A stretch of 64,000 bases of DNA from Pseudonocardia sp. TRM90224 (lineage in GTDB: Bacteria; Actinomycetota; Actinomycetes; Mycobacteriales; Pseudonocardiaceae), in NCBI RefSeq assembly GCF_021245725.1, contig NZ_JAJGSX010000001.1:248001-312000 (forward strand), read 5' to 3'. The notes beneath the pieces were generated by a model. The model did not search any database. It was not told where the DNA came from and saw only the letters and a program-made list of their open reading frames with translations. The translations under genes and the position numbers were made by a program. Positions 25,349 through 47,564 of this stretch are shown piece by piece (position 1 is the stretch's first letter; each line of letters begins with the position of its first letter).

Positions 25349-25511
25349 GGAGGGTCCTGAACAACTGGGGCCGTAGCGAGCGGCGTCCAGGTGGTGTCAT
25401 CGCAAGGCGCGCGGATGCGGCGATACCGCTGTTGTATCGACGTATTCGCGCAACGCCGCGAGGGCGCCGCCTGGGCGTCGCGCAGTAGGTCCCAGTTGTT
25501 CAGGACCCTCC
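25349..25511. repeat. F4 long imperfect palindrome, copy 1 (163 bp)
   Basis: Outer arms 25349-25369 and 25491-25511 are perfect 21-bp inverse complements. Inside, GCGTCCAGGTGGTGTC pairs with the right side through several G-T wobbles, then TCGC/GCGA, an AA bulge, GGCG:CGCC, a CAA bulge on the 3' side, a GC-rich stem and a closing CGATAC (25421-25426) / GTATCG (25434-25439). The wobble-tolerant pairing suggests selection on RNA or single-stranded DNA structure. It lies between the aminotransferase operator and the gntR stop. No gene is visible in it. Confidence 0.8.
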
Positions 25512-47373: not shown

Positions 47374-47377
47374 GCTT

Positions 47378-47537
47378 GGCCGCGTTTAGGAAGTCAGGGT
47401 CGATGCTCTTCGTGATCCAGATCGTCGCTGGCAAGGCGCCGCTACGAGCCGTCGTACTGAGTACCCGGTCGTAGCGGCAACGCCGCCAGCGGCGATCTGG
47501 GCGCGAAGAGCGCGATCAGGACTTTCTAAACGCGGCC
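47378..47537. repeat. F4 long imperfect palindrome, copy 2 (160 bp)
   Basis: The two halves are inverse complements over about 77 bases with few mismatches: outer GGCCGCGTTTAG / CTAAACGCGGCC, then several paired blocks, ending in GTAC-TGA-GTAC (47454-47464). At 53 bases from the left end it has GCAAGGCGC (47431) and at about 51 bases from the right end GCAACGCCGC (47477), giving an AA bulge, GGCG:CGCC and a CAA-type bulge at the same place as in copy 1. Stems are unrelated in sequence to copy 1. No gene is visible. Lies between dapD and CHAD, both plus strand. Confidence 0.83.
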
Positions 47538-47564
47538 TAGCTGCGCCGACTATCCTCGGACGTC

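Follow-up and report, generated by a model that had tools for sequence, protein, structure and literature searches.

A hairpin element dispersed in Pseudonocardia and related genera is a likely MITE with exchangeable ends around a conserved core

The palindrome at positions 47378 to 47537 of the window, i.e., the whole stretch of 64,000 nucleotides of Pseudonocardia sp. TRM90224 that was analyzed, is best explained as a MITE that is moved in trans by matching IS5-type transposases and whose core functions in single-stranded form at the replication fork; we give this reading a probability of roughly 0.6. By all signs, the element is transposon-borne. It is likely that this hairpin and its relatives are hairpin MITEs with exchangeable ends that move in trans, since six classes of their outer stems match TIRs of the IS5 or IS630 family beyond all shuffles. 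In the mechanism that we infer, which comprises transposition in trans, single-strand action, and a core-recognizing protein, (i) the outer stems, matching IS5-family TIRs (IS630-family TIRs in a sister type), would allow the element to be moved in trans by such transposases, (ii) insertion would probably occur into CTAG-like sites, (iii) the inner hairpin would fold as single-stranded DNA at the replication fork, (iv) a putative protein, of which none was found and none is known, would recognize the folded core, and (v) copying of one arm onto the other would let the element take the ends of whichever transposase is present.

The segment forms one long hairpin with a folding energy of -133.6 kcal/mol (176 nt folded), compared with a shuffle mean of -71.1. 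It is flanked by a gene with a tetrahydrodipicolinate N-succinyltransferase domain on one side and a CHAD-domain gene on the other. A second hairpin of the window, at 25349, represents another family (B) of the same element. The parts of the two hairpins are as follows.

47375..47377, no strand: left flank CTT of the 47378 copy (CTA in 7/15 family A copies)
47378..47537, plus strand: full hairpin, family A (fold z -13.1, 0/200 shuffles fold as well; at least 16 near-identical places in the genome)
47378..47395, plus strand: left outer stem, TIR-like, GGCCGCGTTTAGGAAGTC (family A class against an IS5-family end, 18/18)
47411..47505, plus strand: conserved core, model R1, 97 positions (99.3 bits; member of the training set)
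47415..47415, plus strand: bulged A before the U·G pair (GTG-A-TCCAG / CTGGG-CGC) in the minimum-energy fold
47433..47434, plus strand: AA bulge inside GCAAGGCGC in the fold of the 47378 copy
47454..47464, plus strand: apex GTAC-TGA-GTAC, read in the sequence
47478..47480, plus strand: CAA bulge inside GCAACGCCGC in the fold of the 47378 copy
47520..47537, minus strand: right outer stem, TIR-like, complement of the left one
47538..47540, no strand: right flank TAG of the 47378 copy (TAG in 8/15 family A copies)
25349..25511, plus strand: full hairpin, family B, copy 1 of the earlier note (fold z -13.3; 0/200 shuffles)
25382..25479, plus strand: core of the 25349 copy with apex TACCGCTGTTGTA (69.8 bits; member of the training set)
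25404..25405, plus strand: AA bulge of family B in the minimum-energy fold
25451..25453, plus strand: CAA bulge of family B in the minimum-energy fold

The earlier note had described a near-perfect 160-bp palindrome with a 3-base loop (GTAC-TGA-GTAC), with GCAAGGCGC at a distance of 53 bases from the left end and GCAACGCCGC at about 51 to 52 bases from the right end of the 47378 and 25349 copies alike. These positions were correct (GCAACGCCGC ends at 51 bases in the 47378 copy and at 52 in the 25349 copy), both copies fold beyond all 200 shuffles, and the predicted AA bulge, GGCG:CGCC helix, and C(A)A bulge are present in both minimum-energy folds. The high copy number, the bulged A next to the U·G pair, the relatives elsewhere, and the transposon-end stems of the 47378 copy were absent from that description. 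Three other identities were considered and rejected. An intrinsic terminator does not agree with TAGCTGCGCC, which follows the stem and contains no run of T, nor with neighboring gene direction, which shows no clear bias (9 same and 14 opposite); the element had already been said not to be a plain terminator. A coding palindrome of the Rickettsia type (RPE) is at odds with the distance between the arms, which differs by 1 and 2 bases both from family to family and inside a family, and with the location of only 2/40 copies inside an ORF (home-made gene caller). The frame of the core that would encode GKA...NAAS was discarded as a coding candidate, since cores of every length between 93 and 99 exist: the range is 93 to 98 in 62 cores and 93 to 99 in 47 alignment rows, with 95 and 97 both occurring within family A. 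Lengths thus vary regardless of multiples of 3, and no reading frame runs through the core.

In the TRM90224 genome, family A, with the 47378 copy included, occupies at least 16 places (91 to 100% identity over at least 156 of 160 bases; 40 of 129 candidates scored), and family B, with the 25349 copy included, at least 14 (92 to 100% over at least 156 of 163 bases; 40 of 116 candidates scored). Both numbers are lower bounds, since only 40 candidates were scored for each and the draft assembly breaks inside copies, as seen at the contig ends C2:264201-264280, C25:186673-186745, C29:144132-144250, and C44:1-75. The same inner core is found under other outer stems in families C (L034 and L035), D (L057 to L060, and one in L019), and E (L070, at a contig start), and the core model had 52 matches in this genome. 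A CTA left flank was present in 7/15 family A and 4/14 family B copies, a TAG right flank in 8/15 and 8/14, respectively, and both together in 9 of the 29 copies. CTA/TAG flanks are frequent, not universal, and the other flanks include pairs that are complementary rather than direct repeats, e.g., CCA/TGG. IS5- and IS630-type transposases prefer CTAG/TA targets, which the flanks here fit in part. The element abuts a stop codon in 9/40 TRM90224 copies (home-made gene caller). In other genomes, 28 orthologous loci, none longer than about 7 kb, were all without a match to the core model, and at the 24 orthologous loci with a recognizable upstream gene end the gap was short and the core absent. 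These loci have diverged, so that the empty site is unreadable base by base; no target-site duplication was proved at the base level, and no transposition event was observed.

A number of variant forms were seen. Short hairpins with the A or B outer stem and no core occur in TRM90224 (L036, L052, L053, L054, L055, L056, L061, and L062), and their junctions differ, as if they were independent deletions. Two family A copies (L030:2001-2183 and L031:2001-2184) have a 3'-side bulge of about 14 bases in place of the CAA bulge, and another (L021:2001-2250; G000:C81:240897-241200) abuts a family D copy at its end. The two ends of family B elements often differ in the same way (GGAGGGTCC versus GGAGCGCCC) in TRM90224, G005, G022, G030, and G034; both ends of the 25349 copy are identical. 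Family B also has long forms, about 0.4 to 6 kb in length (L295, L296, L293, L300, and L301, from G011, G022, and G030), which consist of the left arm, unrelated cargo, GGTG(G)ATACC, and the right-hand apex hairpin. The left arm stops at GCAAG in L293, L295, and L296; the cargo comprises ordinary-looking genes in L295 and L296 and, by eye, recombinase-like fragments in L293. No intact transposase was recognized by eye in the cargo-bearing elements of these three genomes, which are the only ones among 60 with the exact long-B junction word.

The core extends well beyond this strain. A covariance model trained on 25 elements, which were chosen by the two motif words so that the model leans to them, found the core in 42/60 Pseudonocardia genomes (18/60 had no matches) and in 34/150 genomes from 20/56 genera of the order, TRM90224 included in both counts, often in many copies. 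When 47 matches were aligned (46 rows are distinct, and one row repeats an element of the set as a weak match on the reverse strand), 95.6% of the cells were paired, compared with 71.3% in shuffles (0/500); two-sided changes were seen at 24/29 pairs (17.5 in shuffles) and in 288 cells (87.6 in shuffles), and the signal was destroyed when the partner was slid. The rows had been fitted to the structure, which biases the alignment in its favor; with that reservation, the data agree with the initial view that pairing is kept while sequence is free. Most rows contain GCAAGGC, CAACGC, CCAG/CTGG, and a U·G pair, next to which one base, in most cases A, stays unpaired. Of the 46 rows, 39 have U·G at this pair and 7 have C-G, and the apex of distant members is often TACCGSTGTTGTA or GTACCGGGCGTAC. 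In abundant families of G034 and G022, a perfect stem replaces the AA/CAA bulge, and these families still have the U·G pair with its bulged A and an apex of a related kind; the bulged helix is therefore an optional, nonessential part. Of the fixed internal motif postulated at the outset, the constant position of the unpaired motifs stands, and the AA/CAA bulge proved dispensable.

The conserved U·G pair, the bulges, and the strong covariation would also be expected of a structured RNA, regulatory or processed by RNase III as for the Correia/NEMIS MITEs, that is spread by transposons, and there is a precedent in the cleavage by RNase III of mRNAs that bear Correia elements (PMC10969869, available in part). 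We consider this alternative very unlikely. No Rfam family matched the window at gathering score; 10 matches at relaxed settings were all far below gathering score and mostly to miRNA models, one being to an actinobacterial sRNA model (Ms_AS-8, 17.2 versus 48 bits). At tandem sites, 9 copies have the same and 14 the opposite direction as the gene (n = 23). The orientation data described below also speak against an RNA.

The same core is found under different ends. Hairpins of G030 have 89% identity to the family A core (positions 31 to 135 of 160) and ends of the GGGC(C/G)TGTCCTGTA type. In the pair on which the swap comparison rests, L058 (D) and L070 (E) of TRM90224 (ten other pairs, all of which involve L014 with its mis-set boundary, were left out), the central 55 bases are identical under unrelated outer stems; further out, the stems differ complementarily on both arms, and the islands GTGATCCAG and CTGGGCG are kept. 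In the outer stems, two-sided changes of the arms always preserved pairing (10 cells in family A and 7 in family B, with 0 broken in either), and a further 18 cells in A and 16 in B had changed on one side. Over the whole element, family A had 11 two-sided changes, with a maximum of 7 in 2,000 shuffles, and family B had 7, which equals the shuffle maximum of 7 and is thus not beyond every shuffle; when arm changes were counted with flanks, the numbers were 33 for A (shuffle maximum, 29) and 22 for B (shuffle maximum, 23). These patterns suggest that, when an outer stem changes, a copy of one arm replaces the other, so that a new end gained on one side could spread to both.

To relate the outer stems to transposons, we compared 18 bases of 117 elements in 25 classes with IS ends, the class score being that of the best member; in 3,000 shuffles, the 99% level was 12 and the maximum 13 of 18. 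Six of the 25 classes (69/117 elements) matched IS5- or IS630-family TIRs above the null maximum. The scores were 18 for A, 16 for GGATC, 16 for D, and 15 for C, those of A and D being partly circular because their ISs were first found with the hairpin's own stem and those matching C and GGATC having been found from transposases, not from stems; two more classes (G085/G104, and L070 with L343) reached 14/18 each. The element finder in this test was word based and leaves out families that lack the AA/CAA words, and element ends were picked with a CTA/TAG preference, so its flank counts are left out here. The other 19 classes, some of them single elements with doubtful boundaries, had no IS match above the null maximum. 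Class B, abundant in TRM90224, scored 10/18 (null p 0.18), and no IS with family B ends was found among the pattern matches and the IS5 set.

A search with the family A stem pattern (at most 2 mismatches) returned hairpins and also stems beside IS5-type transposase frames, assigned by reading (L130, L131, and L139), with DUF4096 matches at these sites in G013, G033, and G014; ISs with family-A-type ends are found in L130, L131, and L222. The G033 transposase (L214) passes the NCBIfam IS5 cutoff NF033580, as do those of L222 and L164, and the transposases of L167, L172, L182, and L227 match DUF4096 above the Pfam cutoff. Inverted-repeat elements were reached independently from DUF4096 matches, and most of the named ones are flanked by CTA and TAG; at many other DUF4096 loci no inverted repeat was found. 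The ends obtained in this way are listed below.

L167 and L164: IS end GGGCGTGTCCTGTAAG
L172: IS end GAGCGTGTCCCGTGGATCA
L182 and L227: IS end GGGAGTGTCTGACGGATC
L222: IS end GGAGCTGTTTAGGAAGTC

The search with the D stem retrieved elements of about 1.2 kb with D-like ends (L290 to L292), whose transposases pass the NCBIfam IS630 cutoff NF033545. The search of TRM90224 itself yielded a single IS5-type (DUF4096) gene; the end that could be seen, GTGTGTCCTGTAAGG, is like that of type C and unlike that of type A. The family A element had no match among plasmids and phages (distant blastn), and the core model had none in 80 loci of viral contigs, taken from at least 120 stretches with a 16-base gapped pattern. 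The earlier note saw no link to transposons, which is contradicted by the matches of the 47378 class and five other classes to IS5- and IS630-family ends. It had also stated that its reading would fall if the element turned out to be the ends of one IS; the TIR matches come close to this, and the core was present in no IS that was read.

These matches raise the question of whether the elements are ordinary MITEs, that is, neutral IS5/IS630 deletion derivatives whose shared core was inherited without function. Their high copy number, TIR matches, and CTA/TAG preference, together with the decayed and shortened copies, are what such an origin would produce. We nevertheless regard it as unlikely, for three reasons: (i) the U·G pair and the unpaired motifs persist from genus to genus, and the drift at paired bases is compensated, (ii) one core carries ends that match two transposase superfamilies, and (iii) replichore polarity would be without reason in a neutral, nearly end-symmetric element.

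Evidence for this polarity comes from the orientation of copies relative to replication. With dnaA located and the terminus taken as halfway round, 47/64 copies in G022 and 35/44 in G034 read against the fork (combined, 82/108; p 6e-8; G012 and G073 are left out of the polarity counts). The bias is seen in each score class (7/10, 9/11, and 31/43 in G022; 3/4, 7/8, and 25/32 in G034). In a sample of 60 copies (all 44 of G034 and 16 of G022), 45 read against the fork, namely, 22/29 at non-tandem, 17/23 at co-directional, and 6/8 at head-on sites (home-made gene caller). Because the bias holds in all three kinds of site, gene direction does not explain it. In the TRM90224 draft, with contig GC skew as a proxy, 25/35 copies agree with the polarity (p 0.017); these are the copies on ten contigs with enough sequence, of 53 copies placed. 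Strand concordance within contigs of this genome is weak taken alone (33/55 pairs; permutation p 0.085). G001 shows no polarity, with 6/12 copies to the left of dnaA on its contig and the two to the right one each way; its other contig has 4 plus and 9 minus copies. Polarity was thus seen in three of the four genomes examined, in one of the three by the GC-skew proxy. IS5 transposase matches in G017, G022, and G034 had no bias (13/23, two of 25 on other G017 contigs being left out), and the difference in polarity between them and the hairpins had a Fisher p of 0.07.

Since hairpin ends are mostly near-identical, orientation is probably read from the core; the ends of family B do differ. An orientation that follows the fork and not the neighboring genes, with 22/29 non-tandem copies against the fork, argues against a structured RNA and points to single-stranded DNA. 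The earlier idea of a conserved structured nucleic acid thus holds, with the fold conserved and DNA favored over RNA. Fork-linked orientation has been reported for IS200/IS605, for Tn7, and, via the beta clamp, for several IS families (PMC5371812, available in part). Together with the conservation of unpaired bases in a hairpin, the IS200/IS605 case could suggest mobilization as single-stranded DNA by a core-recognizing Y1/HUH-like recombinase, as in IS200/IS605 or REP/RAYT, with the TIRs secondary. This appears highly improbable: six outer-stem classes match the ends of DDE transposons, and the Actinobacteridae sampled by Quentin et al. carry only TnpAY1 subclass 1.1 (TnpA-IS200) and no TnpAREP (PMC6006769, available in part). 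A RAYT is unlikely as the mobilizer on the same published grounds.

We therefore retain the reading of a MITE that is moved in trans and whose core acts at the fork. A bolder version is offered only tentatively, as possible rather than probable: the core may be ancient, older than the genera that carry it, and may parasitize several unrelated transposases by swapping TIRs of the IS5 and IS630 types through arm-to-arm copying, with the strand marked by fixed unpaired bases and a putative structure-specific protein recognizing the folded single strand at the fork, setting the orientation, and aiding spread.

Several known systems resemble these elements. As a rule, a single transposase family defines a MITE, which is recognized by its ends, and NEMIS is a MITE, with family assignments existing for it and for Correia, ERIC, and QMITE. 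Like MITEs of IS5, of IS630, and in general, the elements described here are short (160 to 163 bp), noncoding, dispersed in high copy number, and mostly intergenic, and their TIRs are shared with transposons (six classes, family A included). They differ from MITEs in that nearly the whole element is one hairpin, the center and not the ends is shared, the ends of two transposase superfamilies sit on one core, and there is replichore polarity. Integron attC sites are long hairpins with imperfect pairing, in which extrahelical bases are conserved and the sequence of the stem is free; the hairpin with extrahelical bases is alike, whereas the copies here are dispersed, with no arrays, in the loci read. 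The 160-bp hairpin, with CTA/TAG as its commonest flanks, is not a REP with a 5' GTAG-type tetranucleotide, and REPs are much shorter than 160 bp. Correia, ERIC, and QMITE are treated as MITEs in a review (PMC10969869), which contains no occurrence of "IS630," "hairpin," or "actinobact." In the open-licence PMC literature, we found neither a hairpin MITE of Pseudonocardia nor TIR exchange around one core, which is weak evidence since only open-licence papers were covered.

TIMEs and their mosaic derivatives are likewise nonautonomous, with ends and interior combining freely, but combine one type of Tn3-family end with different contents, whereas here one core has different ends (PMC4133298). 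REP/REPIN elements with RAYT are also dispersed hairpins, some bulged, with a single-strand logic and a link to replication; the elements here differ in their 160 bp and their DDE-type ends, and TnpAREP is absent from the surveyed Actinobacteridae (PMC6006769). The orientation of IS200/IS605 likewise follows the direction of replication (PMC5371812), and the corresponding counts here are 82/108 in two genomes, 25/35 by proxy, and 6/12 in G001; the difference from IS200/IS605 lies in the outer stems and in the preference for CTA/TAG, both of them pointers to DDE transposition. What is new is a hairpin MITE with exchangeable ends and an unexplained, testable polarity. Its shared center with exchangeable ends is found across many genera of one actinomycete order and, if confirmed, would mean that a nonautonomous element can outlive its helper by changing ends. 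The polarity allows a direct test of what reads a folded DNA strand at the fork, in organisms for which one broad survey reported no REP-type transposases.
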